Source: Leeuwenhoekiella polynyae
GTDB lineage: Bacteria > Bacteroidota > Bacteroidia > Flavobacteriales > Flavobacteriaceae
Reading direction: 5' to 3'
Assembly: GCF_004104075.1 (NCBI RefSeq)
Contig: NZ_QOVK01000017.1
Span: forward strand, 1 to 64,000
DNA length: 64,000 bases
The notes beneath the pieces were generated by a model. That model saw only the letters and a program-made list of their open reading frames with translations, did no database searches and was not told the origin of the DNA. Made by a program: the position numbers and the translations under genes. Below, piece by piece: positions 54,854 to 62,638 of the stretch (positions within the stretch are counted from its first letter, which is position 1; each line of letters begins with the position of its first letter).

Positions 54854-55642
54854 TTACCGAATAAAAAATCGCTGGTTTTCTTTGTTGAAGCCAATAATGT
54901 TATCGGGGAATAACTGTTCAAAAATCCCAGACTCTGTCAAGTTTTTCGGAGTGTCTTGCGTTGCTTTTCCGTTGTGAATCACCAGCATTTCATCAGACAT
55001 CCCTAAAACCAATTCGATATCGTGCGATGTACTTAAGATCGTTTTTTGTTGCTCGTGAGCGATTGTTTTCAGTAAAGAAAAAATAGAAGCTTTGTGATGT
55101 AAATCAAGATGAGTTGTGGGTTCATCAAGCAAAATGACTTCCGTATTTTGGGCTAAAGCACGAGCAATTAGTGCTCTTTGAAATTGGCCGTCGCTTAGTG
55201 CGTGACAAGCTGTATTTTTAAGAGCTTCTAACTCAGTTGCGTTTATAGCATTTAAAATATGGACTTTATCTTCTTCTGAAAGTTTTCCTAACCAATTAGT
55301 ATAGGGCTGTCTTCCTAGCGCAACCAACTCTAAAACTGTTAGGTTTTTTGAAATATATTGTCCGGTTAGAACTACGCTCAATTGTTTAGCTTTTATTTCA
55401 GCATCAAGTGTTTTAATAGGTGATTTTTCAAGTAAAACCTCTCCGGAAATAGGATTCTGAAGTCCGGCTAGTGTGCGTAATAATGTAGATTTACCAGAGC
55501 CATTAATACCCACCATTGTTGTTAAGGTTCCTTTTTTAAGAGAAAGATTCACATCTTCAACAATGATAATCTTTTCCTGTCCATTTTTATATCCAACGGA
55601 AAGTTTTGAACTGCTTAGCAATATTTTATTAAAATCTGACAT
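54854..55642 (-). CDS. btuD: Cobalamin/iron-type ABC transporter ATP-binding protein
   Basis: 262 residues. Walker A GINGSGKSTLLRTLAG, signature LSDGQFQRALIARALAQN (C-loop read as LSDGQ), Walker B EVILLDEPTTHLDLHHK, and His of the switch in STSHDIELV. It is the FecE/BtuD-like ATPase of the vitamin or siderophore class. It lies 3 bases after the permease gene. The divergent cobalamin riboswitch and receptor favour cobalamin. Confidence 0.85.
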   Translation of the reverse strand: MSDFNKILLSSSKLSVGYKNGQEKIIIVEDVNLSLKKGTLTTMVGINGSGKSTLLRTLAGLQNPISGEVLLEKSPIKTLDAEIKAKQLSVVLTGQYISKNLTVLELVALGRQPYTNWLGKLSEEDKVHILNAINATELEALKNTACHALSDGQFQRALIARALAQNTEVILLDEPTTHLDLHHKASIFSLLKTIAHEQQKTILSTSHDIELVLGMSDEMLVIHNGKATQDTPKNLTESGIFEQLFPDNIIGFNKENQRFFIR

Positions 55643-55645
55643 TAC

Positions 55646-56674
55646 TTAAAATAAGAGTTTTTTCTTCCTAATTAAAAGCCAGATCACAACCGGCGCACCT
55701 ATAATTGAAGTAATAGCGTTTATGGGTAGCGAGAATTCAAATAGAGGCATTTGTGCCAATGTATCGCAAAAAAGCATCAATACAGCACCTCCTAAAACGC
55801 AAGCCGGCATCAGCGTCCAGTGATTAGAAGCTGTAAACCATTGTCTGATCAAATGCGGAACGGCGAGCCCGACAAAGGCTATTGGTCCTACAAAAGCAGT
55901 TAGACTTCCTGCGAGAATACTGGTTGCTATTAAAATGATAAATCTGCTTTTTTGTAAGGAAACACCAAGCGTCTGAGCATAGTGATCACCAAGTAATAGA
56001 CTGTTGAGGCTTTTTGTGACTGAAAAAGCTAAAATCATTCCTATAAAGTAGCAAAACGAAAGAATTATTAGTGCATCCCAAGAGATGTCTCCCAGACTTC
56101 CGAAGGACCAAAACATATACCGCTGTAATTCTTCTGCCGGACTAAAATACGCGAGTATGCTTACCACTGCAGCAGTAAGACTCCCAAACATTAAGCCTAT
56201 AATCAATAAAGCCATCGCATCGCGAACTCTTGAGGCGACAAGCAATACAATGCTCAAAACAGCAAAACTTCCCAAGCTGGCAGCGAGAATGGTTCCCCAG
56301 CCATTAGGCACAACAAATGCAGATAAGCCCAGAGCACTTCCTCCTAAAATAAAAAAAGCAACACCCAAACTTGCACCACTACTAATTCCTAATACAAAAG
56401 GTCCCGCCAGCGGATTTTTAAATAGCGTTTGCATCATTAAACCTGCAACAGCTAGTCCGCTTCCGGTCATAATAGCCGCTAAAGCTTTTGGAATTCGATA
56501 ATCGAGAATGATATATTGCCAGGCTTCTTTTACACTATCATCCCCAAGAATAATTTGAATAATAGCCTTTAATGGAATCAGTACTGAACCCAAAGCAATA
56601 TTGACTACGAACAGCAAAATCAAAAGTGTTCCTAGAATTACAAATTGAACGCTATGTTTACTGGTACTATTCAA
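55646..56674 (-). CDS. btuC: BtuC/FecCD-family ABC permease
   Basis: 342 residues, about 10 membrane segments. FecCD motifs: LAVAGLMMQTLFKNPLAGPF, VLGISSGASLGVAFFIL, and AFVGPIAFVGLAVPHLIRQW, the segment that contacts the ATPase. Overlaps the binding-protein gene by 8 bases. It would move cobalamin (or a corrinoid) across the inner membrane. The same family also moves ferric siderophores, so the substrate is inferred from the divergent cobalamin riboswitch. Confidence 0.85.
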   Translation of the reverse strand: MNSTSKHSVQFVILGTLLILLFVVNIALGSVLIPLKAIIQIILGDDSVKEAWQYIILDYRIPKALAAIMTGSGLAVAGLMMQTLFKNPLAGPFVLGISSGASLGVAFFILGGSALGLSAFVVPNGWGTILAASLGSFAVLSIVLLVASRVRDAMALLIIGLMFGSLTAAVVSILAYFSPAEELQRYMFWSFGSLGDISWDALIILSFCYFIGMILAFSVTKSLNSLLLGDHYAQTLGVSLQKSRFIILIATSILAGSLTAFVGPIAFVGLAVPHLIRQWFTASNHWTLMPACVLGGAVLMLFCDTLAQMPLFEFSLPINAITSIIGAPVVIWLLIRKKKLLF

Positions 56675-57812
56675 GTGGTGTGAAAAAGTGAGAGGCTTTA
56701 TTACTGTTAAGTTCCGGGTGAAAAATAGTTACCAGATCTTCAAGAACCCAGTCTGGTCGAGAAGGAGCCAACTCATAATAAAGCATTCCACCGGTTTCTC
56801 CTTTTGCAGCAGCAAAGCTGTAAATAGCTTTGTTTTTAAAAGCAGCAAATTGTGTGTAGGCATCATTTGTTTCTTTTAAAGATTGGTAGCTTTCAAAAGC
56901 ATTAGGAGCAATCCAAAATTCAGCATTTTGTGCCTTATCCAGAACACTTTCAATACTTAAAGAAAGGCTTCCGGTTCCCTTGGTGTCTTTATATAAATAC
57001 TCAGCATTTGCATCAGCTACCAGTTGTGCGGCCCAGCTTTCACCTTTTGGTAAATACCATACATCTTTAAACATAGCACCACTTAAAACTGTAGGCTTTT
57101 TCTTCGCTTTAAGGGCTTCTTTTTTTAAAGAATTGTAGTTGTCTTTTATGGAGTTGAAAATAGAATCAGCTTGTTTTTCTTTATTGTAGAGTGCAGCAAA
57201 AAATTTGATCCATTCTGCTTGACCAAGAGGAGAAGTTTCCGTCCAATCGCCATTATACAATACCGGAATATTTGCGCGTTGCAACGAGTTTAAGCTTTTG
57301 TTCTCACCTTCAACGCCAAAGCTCACCACAACATCAGGATTTAAATCGATCGCTCTCTCTGTATTTATAGATTCATTTTGTCCTAATTCTTCAATTTTTT
57401 CAGCCTTGATAAGCGCTCTTGTTTTGGGCGAAGAAATATAATCAAGATTTGGGAAACCCTTTAGAGTTTCTTCAACACCAAGCAGTTCTAGGGCGGGAAT
57501 ATGCGTTGTTGAAGTTACCACGATTGAAGTAATCGGGATTGTTAGTATAGCATCTGCTTCGATGCTATCTGGTAGTTTTTGTCCTTCTTTGAGTAATGCA
57601 TATCTGAAGGTTTTTTTACTTCCGGGCCATGCTTGAGAAACACTTAAAATTTTATAAGCTTCGTGGTCTAGAATGTCAAATCCTGTAGCAAACTCTACTA
57701 GTGATTTGCTCGTTTGTTGATTCTCTGAAACTTCAGGTTTTGACTCGTTTTTACACGAGTTAAAGAGTAAAAAAGAGAAGAGAAATACAGTTGTAAATAG
57801 GTTTTTTATCAA
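56667..57812 (-). CDS. btuF: Cobalamin-type periplasmic binding lipoprotein
   Basis: 381 residues with a TTG start. Lipobox LLFNSC, then a TroA-type fold with a rigid helix: IPITSIVVTSTTHIPALELL, IDLNPDVVVSFGVEG, and LYNGDWTETSPLGQAEWIKF. The C-terminal lobe contains FWIAPNAFESYQSLKETND. It would deliver corrinoid to BtuCD. A -7 type TACTTTTG lies on the minus strand at 57850-57857, with no good -33. The three genes (F, C, D) are tightly packed with 8-base overlap and 3-base gap. Confidence 0.85.
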   Translation of the reverse strand: MIKNLFTTVFLFSFLLFNSCKNESKPEVSENQQTSKSLVEFATGFDILDHEAYKILSVSQAWPGSKKTFRYALLKEGQKLPDSIEADAILTIPITSIVVTSTTHIPALELLGVEETLKGFPNLDYISSPKTRALIKAEKIEELGQNESINTERAIDLNPDVVVSFGVEGENKSLNSLQRANIPVLYNGDWTETSPLGQAEWIKFFAALYNKEKQADSIFNSIKDNYNSLKKEALKAKKKPTVLSGAMFKDVWYLPKGESWAAQLVADANAEYLYKDTKGTGSLSLSIESVLDKAQNAEFWIAPNAFESYQSLKETNDAYTQFAAFKNKAIYSFAAAKGETGGMLYYELAPSRPDWVLEDLVTIFHPELNSNKASHFFTPLE

Positions 57813-57914
57813 AATCGTCTGATTTGGTGTTTAGGTAGTAATTGAAATTCAAAAGTAAGATTAATTAAAAAAAGTAAGGTAGACTAAGTGATTTGATTAA
57901 CTTCGCGCTTGAAT

Positions 57915-58105
57915 TTTGGTGGTTATTTTCTACTAACGGAAATACCTTAAAAGGGAATCAGGTGCTTAATTTTTTTAATATTCCTGAGCTGTTCCCGCAA
58001 CTGTAAGCTTTGTTCGGTTAACCGAACGGTAAAATCGCTCTTACACCACTGTCTTTACGATGGGAAGGTTGATTTTTATACGCGAGCCAGGAGACCTGCC
58101 AGAAG
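57915..58105 (+). ncRNA. Cobalamin (adenosylcobalamin) riboswitch
   Basis: The characteristic blocks appear in order: GGGAATCAGGTG, CCTGAGCTGTTCCCGCAACT (the B12 box) with GTAA, CACCACTG, GGGAAGG and CGAGCCAGGAGACCTGCC at 58083-58100. It lies on the plus strand between the divergent btuF gene and the TonB-receptor gene, and ends about 45 bases before the receptor's ATG. Cobalamin binding should repress the receptor and following genes. No intrinsic terminator is obvious, so translational control is likely. Confidence 0.95.
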
Positions 58106-58148
58106 TAACTATTAACTGAAGACTTTCGGGGTAAAGGTCAAAGGGCTT

Positions 58149-59987
58149 ATGAATTTTAGATTTAACTACATTTTTGTAGGGATTCTGTTGTGTGCAGGGT
58201 TTCTTTATTCGCAAGAGCGTACGGTGACGCCTCTAGACTCTGTGTATTTAACAGATTCTAAATTAAAGGAATATTCTACCGGTCGCGATGTCTTGACGCT
58301 TTCTGATTCGATTTTGTACCAAAACAGAGCTTTACTAACCAATACACTCAATTTTAACACGCCCATATATTTTAAAGAAAATGGCTTGGGAATGGTCTCA
58401 TCACCATCATTTAGAGGTACAACTGCTTCTCAAACCGCTGTGTTGTGGAATGGGATCAATATCAATTCTCAGTTTAACGGTCAGCTTGATTTTAATACGA
58501 TCAACACCGGTGCTTATAATGAAATATCAGTGCGTGGCGGTGGTGGAAGCGTCGTTTATGGTACGGGGGCAATAGGCGGAAGTGTACATTTAAACACGAC
58601 GTTAAGCTTTGAAAAACTACATGAACATAATCTCTTTCTTCAATATGGTAGCTATACTACTCGTGATGCTCGATACACTTTTAAATTGGGTACAGACCAA
58701 TGGAGTTTAAATCTGGCATTGTCCCGAAACAGCAGCGATAACGACTATGAGTATCCAAATGGAGGTGAAAATTTAAATGGTCAATTTGAAAATACTGCAT
58801 TTAATGTAGGTCTGGGATTTAAAATAAATGACAAGAATTCTATCAGGATTTTTAGCGAACTCTTTGACGGGGAGCGCCATTTTTCATTAATACGTGCTTC
58901 AGAGACTGCTACAAAATATCAAGATCTAAATAGTAAGAATTTATTGGAGTGGGAGAGTAGCTTCGGAGATTTTATTTCGGTTACTCGACTGGCATATTTA
59001 GATGAACACTATAAATACTTCGGAAATCTCAATTACGATTCGTTCACCTTTGGAAGGGCTAAAACATTTATCGCAAAATATGATTTGAGTTATTCTGTTT
59101 TAGATAATCTAACACTGAATACCGTTTTGACCAATACCAACACGACCGGTGAAGGTTCAAGTTTAGGTGAAAATGATCGAAATATTTTTGCAGCTGCTCT
59201 TTTAATGAAACATCAGTTGGCTTCGGACTTTAAATACGAATTGGGTTTTAGAAAAGAAGCTACAGCCAATTATGATAGTCCGTTTTTGTTTTCTGTAGGA
59301 GCTACGAAAGACTTTAGTGATTTTTTCAGTTTAAATGTTAATGCTTCCCGAAACTTTAGAATTCCTACCTACAACGATCTGTACTGGTCTTCTGCCGGAA
59401 ATCCTGATTTGCTTCCGGAGAAATCTTTGCAAGGGCAGATAGGAGCTGTGTTTAATTACCGCTCGTTGCGTTTAAACATCACAGGGTATTACAATTCGGT
59501 TACAGATATGATCAGATGGTTGCCCGGAAGCGATGGGGTTTGGAGACCGGTTAATGAAGATGAAGTGCAAATCTATGGTTTAGAATCGGGTTTAAACTGG
59601 TTTAAGACTTTTAAAAATAAACACCGATTTTCTTTAAATGCGACCTATGCGTATACAATTTCAGAGAATAAAGAGACGGGTTATCAACTGATCTACGTTC
59701 CTTTTCATAAAGTCACTGCCGGGATGAATTATAACTATAAGCGACTGCATACAAACCTTCAATTCTTATATGTGGGAGAAGTGTTTACACGCAGTGATAA
59801 CAACAGTCGATATAATCTAGATCCCTATACGGTTGGCAACTTCAGTATGGGCTATCGCTTCGGCAAATCAGAACAATTTGAACTGGGTGGACGTATCAAT
59901 AACTTTTTTGATGCTGAATATCAAAGTGTTGAAAACCGTTGGATGCCTGGTCGAAATTTTACTATGTACTTAAATTTTAAACTATAA
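58149..59987 (+). CDS. btuB: TonB-dependent cobalamin receptor, BtuB-like
   Basis: 612 residues. Signal peptide ending FLYSQ, a plug domain (LTNTLNFNTPIYFKENGLGM, VSSPSFRGTTASQTAVLWNG, EISVRGGGGSVVYGTGAIGG) and a 22-strand barrel ending in MYLNFKL with the terminal aromatic residue. Loops are short, as in BtuB. The function is TonB-driven import of corrinoids across the outer membrane. It is preceded by a cobalamin riboswitch and followed after 10 bases by the beta-propeller lipoprotein gene. The size matches BtuB more than iron-siderophore receptors. Confidence 0.92.
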   Translation: MNFRFNYIFVGILLCAGFLYSQERTVTPLDSVYLTDSKLKEYSTGRDVLTLSDSILYQNRALLTNTLNFNTPIYFKENGLGMVSSPSFRGTTASQTAVLWNGININSQFNGQLDFNTINTGAYNEISVRGGGGSVVYGTGAIGGSVHLNTTLSFEKLHEHNLFLQYGSYTTRDARYTFKLGTDQWSLNLALSRNSSDNDYEYPNGGENLNGQFENTAFNVGLGFKINDKNSIRIFSELFDGERHFSLIRASETATKYQDLNSKNLLEWESSFGDFISVTRLAYLDEHYKYFGNLNYDSFTFGRAKTFIAKYDLSYSVLDNLTLNTVLTNTNTTGEGSSLGENDRNIFAAALLMKHQLASDFKYELGFRKEATANYDSPFLFSVGATKDFSDFFSLNVNASRNFRIPTYNDLYWSSAGNPDLLPEKSLQGQIGAVFNYRSLRLNITGYYNSVTDMIRWLPGSDGVWRPVNEDEVQIYGLESGLNWFKTFKNKHRFSLNATYAYTISENKETGYQLIYVPFHKVTAGMNYNYKRLHTNLQFLYVGEVFTRSDNNSRYNLDPYTVGNFSMGYRFGKSEQFELGGRINNFFDAEYQSVENRWMPGRNFTMYLNFKL

Positions 59988-59997
59988 ATAATCAAAA

Positions 59998-61062
59998 ATG
60001 AAAATTAATAAACTTAGTCTTTTAGCGCTTTTAGGCGTATTTATTTTAAACTCGTGTTCTAATGACGATGACAATCTAGAACCACTTCCTGAAGGGGATT
60101 ACACTGATGGTTTTTTTGTTACTAACGAAGGAATGTTTGAAGGAAGAGGAACAGTCTCTTTTATAAGCGACGACTTACAAACTTCAGATATTGATGTGTA
60201 TTCGACAGTAAATCCTTCTGAAAGTGATTTGGGTCAATTTGTACAGTCTATATTTTTTGACGAAGACAATGCGTATGTAATTTCTAATGGATCAAATTAT
60301 ATAACTGTCGTAGATCGCTATACCTTTGAATATATAGGAGTGATTGATTCAGAACTTTCAATTCCAAGATACGGTGAGGTTGTGAATGGAAAAGCTTATG
60401 TGACCAATCAGGGAGATTTTTCTACAGGAGCAGATGATTATGTTGTTGTAATAGATTTAGAAACCCTAACAGTAGAAAACACGTTAATTATCGGTAATAA
60501 AATTGATAAATTAGAAGAGGAAGACGGTCTGATTTATATTCAAGGAAGTGCCTTTAATGATGGTAATAGTATAAATGTTTTAGATCCAACTTCAAATTCT
60601 ATTACAACTACGTATACAACTGAAGGATCTCTTAACTCATTTGATATTGAGGATGGTTTTATTTATGCTTTAACGAGAAAGGATGTTGAAGGTACAGATC
60701 CTCTGGAAAAAGTAGCTTATTTAGAAAAAATAGATCTTGCTACAGGAAATAGATCTACTCAGATTGTTTTTTCACAAGCAACCAGTGTTGCAAAAAACTT
60801 AACAATAGAAGATGATACAATTTATTATATGATTGGTACTTCTGTATATAAAATAGCTTTAAGCACAAGTGAGGAGCCGTTGCAAGATTTACTTACTTTT
60901 AGCGGTAATCTTGCTTACGGATTTGATGTAGAAGATGATCGCATATTTATTGCTCAAGGAACTTTTGATTCAGATAGTTTTGTTGAGATCTACTCAACAA
61001 ATGGAAGTTTATTAAAAAATATAACAGTTGGATTAGGACCCAACGGTTTCTATTTCAACTAA
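59998..61062 (+). CDS. Beta-propeller lipoprotein, BtuG-like (DUF5074/YncE family)
   Basis: 354 residues. Lipobox ILNSC followed by SNDDDN, an acidic flavobacterial surface-export signal. The rest shows the blades of a beta-propeller: DGFFVTNEGMFEGRGTVSFI, AYVISNGSNYITVVDRYTFE, YVVVIDLETLTVENTLIIGN, ITTTYTTEGSLNSFDIEDGF and so on. In Bacteroides, BtuG is a surface beta-propeller that binds cobalamin and sits on BtuB. Position directly behind a riboswitch-controlled receptor makes the same role likely, by inference. Confidence 0.8.
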   Translation: MKINKLSLLALLGVFILNSCSNDDDNLEPLPEGDYTDGFFVTNEGMFEGRGTVSFISDDLQTSDIDVYSTVNPSESDLGQFVQSIFFDEDNAYVISNGSNYITVVDRYTFEYIGVIDSELSIPRYGEVVNGKAYVTNQGDFSTGADDYVVVIDLETLTVENTLIIGNKIDKLEEEDGLIYIQGSAFNDGNSINVLDPTSNSITTTYTTEGSLNSFDIEDGFIYALTRKDVEGTDPLEKVAYLEKIDLATGNRSTQIVFSQATSVAKNLTIEDDTIYYMIGTSVYKIALSTSEEPLQDLLTFSGNLAYGFDVEDDRIFIAQGTFDSDSFVEIYSTNGSLLKNITVGLGPNGFYFN

Positions 61063-61085: not shown

Positions 61086-61122
61086 TAAAAAAATCCGCTG
61101 ATGAACTCAGCGGATTTTTAGT
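61086..61122. terminator. Bidirectional terminator
   Basis: Stem atccgctg/cagcggat (61093-61100 with 61108-61115), with an A-run before and a T-run after, between convergent genes (the propeller lipoprotein and the S41 peptidase). Confidence 0.9.
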
Positions 61123-61138
61123 TTATAAAAATGAAATG

Positions 61139-62638
61139 CTATTTCTTAATTTCCGGAAGTCTGTTATCATACATTCTTTGGTAAGTAGGAGAAAACATGT
61201 CGGTTTCTCCAACCAATTGATAAGCAGGTCCTGAACGACGTTTAGTGCTTCGGCTTTTTCCTAAAATTTGATCTAAAGCTAACCTTAAAAGTGGTTCGTC
61301 AGGATCTCCTAACTGCCCAAGATTAGTAAGATCTTCTTCCAATTCAAAATCTGGTTCGATACCTGTAGGAGGTCCTACCAAGCCATTAGCATTTGAATAG
61401 GTGTAAATCAAAGGTTGAATCGCATAGGTATGATCTGGGTTTACGTTTTCTTTAAAGAAATTATCTCCATCATATAAAGTTGCAGACGCCTGAAATTTGC
61501 CAACTGTTGTAGTCCCAATAGTAGTAACGTCTATGTAAGGTCGTAAACCAATAATGGTTAACTCACTCGCAGAGGCTGTACTTCCTGTACCTATTACATA
61601 GAGACGACTTAGATTTAAACTGTTTATAGCTTCTTCATGATCTGTTTCGCTATAAATTGTAGAATTGAAACGATCAATTAAATTATCTGGACTTTCTAAC
61701 TCAAAATAAGCTTGTGCCTCGGCATTCCATTGTTGTTTAGTTATAACATCTCCTTCAAATTGACCGGTAATCATTGAAGCCAAATCGATAGCGCTTGCAA
61801 CAGAACCACCGCCATTATATCTTAAATCTAAAACTAAGTCAGTAACACCGTCTGCTTTAAAATCAGCAAAAGCAGCATTTAATTCGCCATCAAAATTAGA
61901 CACGTAAGAGTTGTACATTAAATAGCCTATTTTTTGACCATCTATATCAAGTGTTTCAGCAATATAAACCGGGTTTTCAGTAAACCCTTCTTCTTTAGTG
62001 AGTGTAACACTTTCTCCTGTATTGCTCACGGTGTTATCTGAAACCGAAGCTAAATTCAGTGTATAGGTATCTTGATTAAGTAAGGTTTGATAATTATTTA
62101 TAGTCATCTGGGTACGTACCGTCTACCTCCATAAAAAGATCGCCGCGCTCAATAATTGTGCTTGAAGCATTAGAATTAGGAGCAACATAACTTACATAAC
62201 CAAAAATATCATTTGAATTTGAAAAACGAACTAGACTAAATTTAAGTCCATTACTTTTGCTAACTCCAGAAAAACTGTTTTCTAACTCGATATAATTATC
62301 TGTTATAAAACTGAAGCGATCTTGATCTGAAATCAACTCATCGTAATAAAAATTTTCAGGATCAGGATTCTCTGATAAATAGGTTACATATTCATTTGTA
62401 TCAGTAAAGTAACCATCAGCCAATTCAGGGATGTCAGCTTTGTATAAATAATAAACATTCATCGCTTGGTAAATGAAGTCTTGAATAGGATAATCTTCTC
62501 TATCTAAAGTGACTTCTTCCGGTTCTTCAGTAGTAGGTTCTTCAACTAACTCTTCTGTAACATCATCATCATTAGAGCATGATGATAGCGCTAGAATACT
62601 TAGTAAGAGTATAAGAGTATTAGAAAGTGCTTTTTCAT
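61139..62638 (-). pseudogene. S41 peptidase lipoprotein gene interrupted by two frameshifts
   Basis: The full gene would start at the ATG at 62638 and end at 61139. The start reads atgaaaaagca; with one more A the frame would give MKKALSNTLILLLSILALSS followed by CSNDDD, a signal peptide and lipobox. As it stands, it stops after 12 codons. A second break lies at the CCC (GGG on plus, 62110-62112); with CC the frame reads EVDGTYQMTINNYQTLLN. The rest encodes the S41 core: DLVLDLRYNGGGSVASAIDL, GSTASASELTIIGL with the Ser, and TTTVGKFQASATL with the Lys. Its neighbour (62684 on) is an intact paralogue. Sequencing error is possible. Confidence 0.75.

Follow-up and report, generated by a model that had tools for sequence, protein, structure and literature searches.

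The window analysed here is a 64,000-nucleotide stretch of the Leeuwenhoekiella polynyae genome. An open reading frame at 59998-61062 on the forward strand, with an ATG start and a length of 354 aa, encodes BtuG, which family membership and a predicted fold indicate to be a surface lipoprotein beta-propeller and a putative B12-binding lid. Its start is separated by 10 bp from the stop of btuB (58149-59987, forward strand), a gene for a 612-aa TonB-dependent receptor with Plug and TonB_dep_Rec domains that is assigned to the BtuG-capped type by a profile of 28 relatives. The pair is preceded by a cobalamin riboswitch at 57900-58117 on the same strand (RF00174, 92.3 bits, E 1.3e-21, full model 1-189). 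On the reverse strand, btuF (56667-57812), divergent from btuB, encodes a periplasmic binding protein (PF01497, E 2e-21; NCBIfam BtuF, E 1.3e-8, below cut-off), btuC (55646-56674) an ABC permease (FecCD, E 4.7e-80; best NCBIfam model BtuC, E 9.5e-63, below cut-off) and btuD (54854-55642) an ABC ATPase (ABC_tran, E 5.3e-29), the last of which is named from its position since its best NCBIfam model is FecE. A terminator-like hairpin of 13 pairs, scored on the reverse strand, lies at 61089-61119 between btuG and a convergent S41 peptidase gene, and promoter-like sites occur at chance level (13 against 12.9 expected). The S41 gene itself (61139-62462, reverse strand) is read as two overlapping frames of 322 and 122 aa, and its counterpart in L. 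aestuarii is a single 512-aa frame with 90% identity over 324 aa; the split may reflect a frameshift in this copy or an error in the sequencing.

The genome possesses genes for B12-dependent methionine synthase (metH) and methylmalonyl-CoA mutase, and no match to CbiC, the marker used for cobalamin biosynthesis (CbiK was dropped as a poor marker), was found in it; it is therefore probably dependent on B12 uptake. A second riboswitch in the genome precedes an ORF read as metE, which we take to encode the B12-independent methionine synthase.

Residues 1-20 of the window BtuG form a lipoprotein signal, read by eye, that ends in LNSC and is followed by SNDDD. Cys20 (60055-60057, forward strand) is the predicted lipidation site from sequence and conservation, and its equivalent is invariant in 26 of 26 and in 80 of 80 aligned sequences, the latter from the best 80 of 166 loci. 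A sequence-only reading of this DNA had described a protein with a surface-lipoprotein signal behind a riboswitch and a BtuB; this gene context holds, and the signal agrees with the one read by eye here. Membership of DUF5074, for which a comparison had been proposed there, is borne out by a match to PF16819 over residues 37-343 (E 7.3e-17, 61.9 bits against a Pfam cut-off of 27.2 bits). A single-sequence phmmer search of solved structures returned BtuG chains at E 2.4e-12 to 5.3e-10, and the nine distinct sequences recovered up to E 1 were all BtuG-type. With a same-family profile of 26 of the 28 relatives, from which two with longer ORFs (L049 and L056) were omitted, BtuG3 scored at 1.5e-84 and BtuG2 at 2.3e-83, in a range that extends to 3.9e-80 and includes 3DSM, followed by BtuG1 (4e-41 to 6.2e-38), the archaeal propeller 1l0q (5.7e-29) and BtuK1 (6.4e-19). 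The 80-sequence alignment omits one BtuG, that of Salegentibacter sp. R32 (L105:6548-7936), a protein of 463 aa whose extra N-terminal part of about 100 residues separates the lipoprotein signal from the propeller and is perhaps a spacer domain.

The AlphaFold2 model of the window BtuG, built from an input alignment of 80 sequences, consists mostly of beta strands and has a mean pLDDT of 90.4 and a pTM of 0.87. The propeller fold and the number of seven blades are read from structural matches and not from blade counting: the model lies nearest to seven-bladed BtuG chains, in line with the propeller-like repeats that had been read from the sequence, and not to a non-propeller fold. Ranks 1-16 of a Foldseek search were all BtuG-type chains. 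In VIA-align, BtuG2, BtuG3, BtuG1 and 3DSM aligned at Z 31.7-35.2 over 299-311 residues with an rmsd of 2.8-3.6, including Z 35.0 to 3dsm and Z 35.2 to 8bai (BtuG2) over 304 residues. The comparison with BtuG2 that had been proposed earlier therefore favours a BtuG, at Z 35.2 against 27.8 for the best non-BtuG chain, which is BtuK1; the archaeal surface-layer propeller 1l0q follows at Z 27.5. A generic DUF5074/YncE propeller with no B12 role was rejected, as BtuG ranks first by both sequence and fold and 1l0q trails it in each (E 5.7e-29, Z 27.5). The fold match to BtuK1 of Bacteroides thetaiotaomicron (9s6c), itself a B12-binding propeller, is good enough to raise the idea of a B12-binding propeller of this other class that is no BtuB lid. 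This is extremely unlikely, however, given that all BtuG chains score higher than BtuK1 by sequence (BtuG2/3 at 3.9e-80 or better, BtuG1 at 4e-41 to 6.2e-38, BtuK1 at 6.4e-19) and by fold, and that the gene sits directly behind btuB. Judged from sequence and modelled structure, 59998-61062 is a BtuG, a member of a known family with predicted B12 binding. The counterpart of BtuG in Flavobacteriaceae proposed by the sequence-only reading was therefore rightly called, as a kind of protein already known, and it agrees with the best profile score of 1.5e-84, the Z of 35.2 to BtuG2 and the presence of BtuG with BtuB in 28 of 28 genomes (below). Its suspicion of divergence from Bacteroides BtuG was also correct, with an identity to BtuG2 of about 21% and BtuG2 residues Tyr239 and Trp272 not conserved.

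A profile of the 28 related BtuBs matches BtuB2 (8bmx_C) at E 3.8e-131, BtuB3 at 8.9e-131, BtuB1 at 6.8e-69 and E. coli BtuB at about 1e-41. In B. thetaiotaomicron, as described in PMC10404256, BtuG forms a lid on BtuB and binds B12 tightly, and loop EL8 of BtuB probably displaces the vitamin from it; growth on B12 stops when the tip of EL8 is replaced (PMC10404256). An alignment of the 28 BtuBs with BtuB2 and E. coli BtuB places Trp465 of the window BtuB (59541-59543, forward strand) at Phe523 of BtuB2 and Tyr538 of BtuB3 in this loop, for which a role is given in that source, and the position is W or F in all 28 relatives. The closest known systems are BtuG2/BtuB2 and BtuG3/BtuB3 of B. thetaiotaomicron (8bmx, 8p97, 8bai), which share with the window pair a propeller lipoprotein encoded with BtuB, the fold, the EL8 aromatic and the NEG, Q and P[RK][YF] positions. 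They differ in that the window operon consists of the two genes btuB and btuG and has no other lipoprotein gene ahead of the terminator, in the low identity noted above, in the length of the beta5A loop (short in 78 of the best 80 of 166 related loci) and in the receptor, which has 612 aa against 693-713 for the solved chains. BtuG1/BtuB1 (BtuGH; 8blw, 8ptd) is alike in fold and, by analogy, in role, and has counterparts of its own in Flavobacteriales (loci L174-L177), but the window pair is nearer to BtuB2/3 and BtuG2/3.

To place the B12 pocket, BtuG2 residues were mapped onto the window protein through alignments with PDB chains. The numbering taken from two papers is sound, because all twelve residues fall on the expected letter of the PDB chain (Cys32, Asn54, Thr64, Trp194, Asp236, Tyr239, Pro249, Lys266, Trp272, Ser274, Tyr316 and Tyr335). 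The named pocket residues Trp194, Tyr239, Trp272, Tyr316 and Tyr335 correspond to Phe186, Val230, Val264, Tyr307 and Phe323, of which three are aromatic and two, at Tyr239 and Trp272, are not. Among the 26 aligned sequences, BtuG2 N54, E55, G56, Q93, P132 and Y316 are each kept in 24 to 26, and an aromatic residue is present at the W194 position in 23 and at the Y335 position in all 26; the window residues Gln83, Pro123 and Tyr307 and the NEG motif with which the first clamp loop begins vary little or not at all. Residues 43-52 (NEGMFEGRGT; 60124-60153, forward strand) are the mapped equivalent of the BtuG2 loop Asn54-Thr64, one clamp arm on B12, and residues 223-243 (60664-60726, forward strand) cover the region of the beta5A loop, the other clamp arm, roles that are given in PMC10404256. 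The beta5A region is long here: BtuG2, the window BtuG and the L. marinoflava BtuG each have 21 residues in it, against 9 to 15 in the remaining 78 BtuGs from the best 80 of 166 loci. By charged-residue count, the mature window BtuG carries -44, BtuG2 -18 and the 80 flavobacterial BtuGs (best 80 of 166) -5 to -62, with a mean of -27.

By analogy with B. thetaiotaomicron, the lipid-anchored BtuG propeller would capture cobalamin on the cell surface and close as a lid over the co-encoded BtuB, whose loop EL8 would dislodge the vitamin into the barrel; TonB would drive B12 inward, BtuF-BtuCD from the divergent operon would import it, and B12 would shut off the btuBG mRNA through the riboswitch. 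Surface location, B12 binding, the complex with BtuB, lid motion and release are all carried over from B. thetaiotaomicron, and we infer capture, lid closing and release from homology and conservation. A propeller that caps BtuB but has lost tight B12 binding, serving as a structural lid or as a shield against, for instance, phages or bacteriocins over a BtuB that itself captures the vitamin, would fit the replacement of Tyr239 and Trp272, the short beta5A clamp loop of 78 of 80 relatives (best 80 of 166), although not of the window protein, and the comparison of the window genome with L. aestuarii, in which btuG differs far more than btuB. It also has a precedent in BtuK2, which PMC12751083 describes as lacking B12 binding though resembling BtuK1. 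The retention of N54, E55, G56, Q93, P132 and Y316 in 24-26 of 26 sequences and of an aromatic residue at W194 (23 of 26) and Y335 (26 of 26) speaks against such a shield, as does EL8, which B. thetaiotaomicron needs to undo tight binding and which is kept in 28 of 28 receptors; this alternative is unlikely, and a vitamin-capturing lid is preferred.

To follow the pair through related genomes, a census of 60 genomes, including that of the window, was performed. Window-type BtuB, called at E 1e-30 or better, is present in 28 of the 60, a threshold that is not airtight outside Flavobacteriaceae, where a BtuB-like receptor beside a propeller gene was missed in G049. BtuG lies beside BtuB on the same contig in all 28 genomes and, by coordinates, is the next gene in 27. 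The exception is G050 (L182:2098-4007), where a DUF4465 (BtuH-type) protein with a Por_Secre_tail and a 319-aa protein with no Pfam match lie between btuB and btuG. In the 32 genomes in which window-type BtuB was not called, nothing matches the window BtuG with an E-value below 1e-10, and weaker matches were seen in two of them, G049 (4.9e-5) and G012 (7.1e-4). Among named loci, the best 80 of 166 confirmed, BtuB is upstream of BtuG in all 80, within 300 bp in 79, and a B12 box is present in 79 (73 exact, 6 with one mismatch); at L121, the sole one of these 80 with no B12 box, Rfam finds no riboswitch either. One of the named loci, L102 of Mesonia oceanica (L102:5327-6979), carries between btuB and btuG a MACPF (perforin-type) lipoprotein-like gene, which is unexpected for a vitamin operon.

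A second receptor type occupies the same locus in part of the genus. Eight of 13 Leeuwenhoekiella genomes possess the lidded pair and five possess a lidless receptor, and in all 13 the receptor lies between btuF and the S41 peptidase gene. The five lidless genomes (G002, G004, G005, G007 and G012) possess MetH and the riboswitch, at which a single receptor ORF of 622-669 aa is found; neither a window-type BtuB nor, beyond the weak match in G012, a BtuG was detected in them, at completeness values of 98-99% for G002, G004 and G005, 99% for G007 (contamination 9) and 81% for G012. The nearest solved relative of the G004 receptor (L201) is E. coli BtuB (E 1.6e-37), and the G002, G004 and G012 receptors score E 1e-74 to 6e-65 against the B12-receptor model TIGR01779, which is below its cut-off; comparison with the window BtuB gives short matches only (best E 1e-8). 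E. coli BtuB is a B12 receptor of the same superfamily and the nearer relative of the receptor at this locus in 5 of 13 genus genomes, but it has no BtuG, and its EL8 region is a short Y-x-N in place of [WF]-x-x-x-N. By alignment, Y-x-N is the pattern of 19 of 19 lidless receptors and [WF]-x-x-x-N that of 28 of 28 lidded ones. The EL8 aromatic taken alone was rejected as a discriminator of the two types, as four lidless receptors fit [WF]-x-x-x-N and two lidded ones fit Y-x-N, and the alignment is uncertain there.

Across the census, E. coli-type BtuB (E 1e-30) is present in 19 of 60 genomes, none of which is among the 28 lidded. With 8.9 double carriers expected and none observed, the hypergeometric P is 1.7e-7 over the 60 genomes, and within Flavobacteriaceae alone, where 15 of 37 genomes are lidded and 18 lidless, P for zero overlap is 4e-7; both values ignore relatedness. 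Of the 23 genomes outside Flavobacteriaceae, 13 have the lidded receptor and 1 has the lidless one. A cobalamin riboswitch precedes 17 of the 19 lidless receptors, with none at L285 and L288. By eye, no same-direction lipoprotein-like gene was seen within 1.8 kb behind 18 of the 19 lidless receptors, the exception being L288, where one lies 228 bp behind btuB; "lidless" is defined by neighbourhood and by the absence of BtuG matches, so an unrelated lid could be encoded elsewhere. The lidless genomes G007, G012, G013 and G031 gave weak matches to DUF5074 or BtuG. These were read individually, with marginal DUF5074 matches in ORFs of at least 1300 aa inspected for G007 and G013, and none is a BtuG beside a B12-type receptor. 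The G012 match (E 7.1e-4) covers only query residues 4-67 and belongs to a 415-aa lipoprotein-like gene that follows a 790-aa receptor-like gene (L291:131-3771). Thirteen of the 60 genomes were negative for both types in these searches. Four of them contain related genes, namely a BtuB1G1-type pair in G028, a BtuB-like receptor accompanied by a propeller in G049, and a propeller adjacent to btuF and btuC in G048 and G059. Seven of the remaining nine have no MetH.

Two trees were used to trace changes between the receptor types. The MetH tree (quick search) holds 40 of the 49 genomes with MetH, comprising 21 lidded, 18 lidless and one with neither type. The btuFCD tree (careful search) holds 27 chosen rows, comprising the 13 genus genomes, seven of the other 14 lidless genomes and seven of the 80 named lidded loci, which are typed by their btuB-btuG locus alone; G012 fills just 24% of its columns. 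Nine state changes are needed on the MetH tree, where starred branches force at least seven for the lidded label and at least eight for the lidless label, and six are needed on the btuFCD tree, where starred branches force six. Three of the switches fall inside the genus Leeuwenhoekiella on each tree, the counts carrying no direction, and lidded G008 and lidless G012 are sisters on both, with support of 100/99 on the btuFCD tree. MetH and btuFCD may themselves have been transferred. Shuffled labels gave counts as low as those observed in 3 of 500 (lidded) and 25 of 500 (lidless) cases on the MetH tree and in 19 and 24 of 500 on the btuFCD tree. The labels are thus more clustered than in most shuffles on both trees which, along with the skew outside Flavobacteriaceae (13 of 23 lidded against 1 of 23 lidless), is what would be expected if the exclusion merely reflected clade structure, with one type inherited per lineage and little exchange. 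The changes forced by starred branches (at least seven or eight on the MetH tree, six on the btuFCD tree) and the three changes within one genus on both trees, including the sister pair G008 and G012, make this reading very unlikely.

Exchange is also apparent within the lidded pair. The closest BtuG to that of the window among the best 80 of 166 loci is from L. marinoflava (95% identical), whereas by MetH and btuFCD L. aestuarii is the nearer of the two to the window genome. Identity between the window genome and L. aestuarii is 99% for MetH, 94% for BtuB and 59% for BtuG. At the DNA level, btuFCD is 98-100% identical in every 250-base bin but one (92%), and identity drops from 86% where btuB ends to 73, 65, 62 and 61% along btuG, recovering to 92% immediately after the gene. 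The BtuGs of L. palythoae and L. aequorea are closer to the L. aestuarii BtuG, with 90% identity. These values are most simply read as recombination of the lid gene on its own, carrying the shorter beta5A loop with it. Other local events are also possible, as the S41 genes behind btuG vary as well (76-99%).

Taken together, the outer-membrane B12 part in Flavobacteriaceae behaves as an exchangeable cassette between conserved neighbours, consisting either of BtuB with BtuG or of an E. coli-type BtuB with no BtuG, and repeatedly swapped. A BtuG lid over the co-encoded BtuB that imports cobalamin, in combination with this cassette, is highly likely to account for the locus as a whole, with binding, complex and lid motion being predictions by analogy. 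A more extended account is slightly favoured, in which the frame of riboswitch, btuFCD and S41 stays fixed, the receptor flips between capped and uncapped and the lid gene recombines alone. Selection at the surface, through phage or bacteriocin entry or through a trade-off of affinity against corrinoid range or speed, would drive the switching, and the lid would be a conditional benefit and not an advance simply fixed in the phylum.

The lidded receptor is widespread in Flavobacteriaceae, including Leeuwenhoekiella, Mesonia, Salegentibacter and Flavobacterium, genera that are mostly marine, saline, soil or freshwater, and the gut alone therefore cannot explain it. In gut Bacteroides, BtuG helps in competition for B12 and can take B12 from host intrinsic factor, according to PMC6143338. 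The gut survey reported there found btuG in 106 of 109 btuB operons, with a divergent btuG in two of the other three, which contrasts with the near-even split in Flavobacteriaceae (15 lidded and 18 lidless of 37). Among flavobacterial reports, a predicted cobalamin transporter BtuB is listed among the receptors of Flavobacterium psychrophilum (PMC9331221) and a DUF5074 protein was found in vesicles of Elizabethkingia anophelis (PMC9431301). A search of the open-access literature, mostly at title level, yielded no account of what BtuG does in Flavobacteriaceae and none of an exchange between lidded and lidless receptors. Apparently new are the wide occurrence of BtuG in Flavobacteriaceae, its mutual exclusion with a lidless receptor and the repeated replacement of one by the other at a single locus. 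A single genus in which lidded and lidless receptors share one locus, and in which riboswitch and inner-membrane transporter are of one kind, constitutes a matched strain set that could show what the lid buys, be it affinity, corrinoid range, speed or protection from phages or bacteriocins. The question of what drove Bacteroidetes to add BtuG, raised in PMC6143338, becomes testable in such strains.

DUF5074 matches away from window-type BtuB (loci L174-L181) were inspected for pairing with non-B12 receptors, and no such partner receptor was found among these eight loci, six of which carry a cobalamin riboswitch (none at L178 and L180). L174-L177 are BtuB1G1-type loci: L176 matches 8blw_A at 2.1e-132 and 8blw_B at 7.7e-68, and L174, L175 and L177 match the L176 pair at 1.8e-101 or better for the receptor and 2.4e-48 or better for the propeller. 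At L179 (G049), the propeller lies beside a BtuB-like receptor. In G048 and G059 (L178:3604-6695 and L180:1992-6206), the propeller gene adjoins btuF and btuC, not btuB, with no riboswitch above the gathering score. At L181:5405-7147, a cobalamin riboswitch directly precedes the gene for a 581-aa protein that matches DUF5074 and has no immediate neighbour of receptor size. The Flavobacteriaceae BtuB1G1-type loci L174:921-6562 and L177:3785-8043, which lie behind a riboswitch, have further lipoprotein-like genes after the propeller. The extra protein of L174 matches PKD_3 and DUF5074 (E 9.5e-84) and that of L177 has a sub-threshold PKD_3 match, and both are candidate B12-binding proteins.
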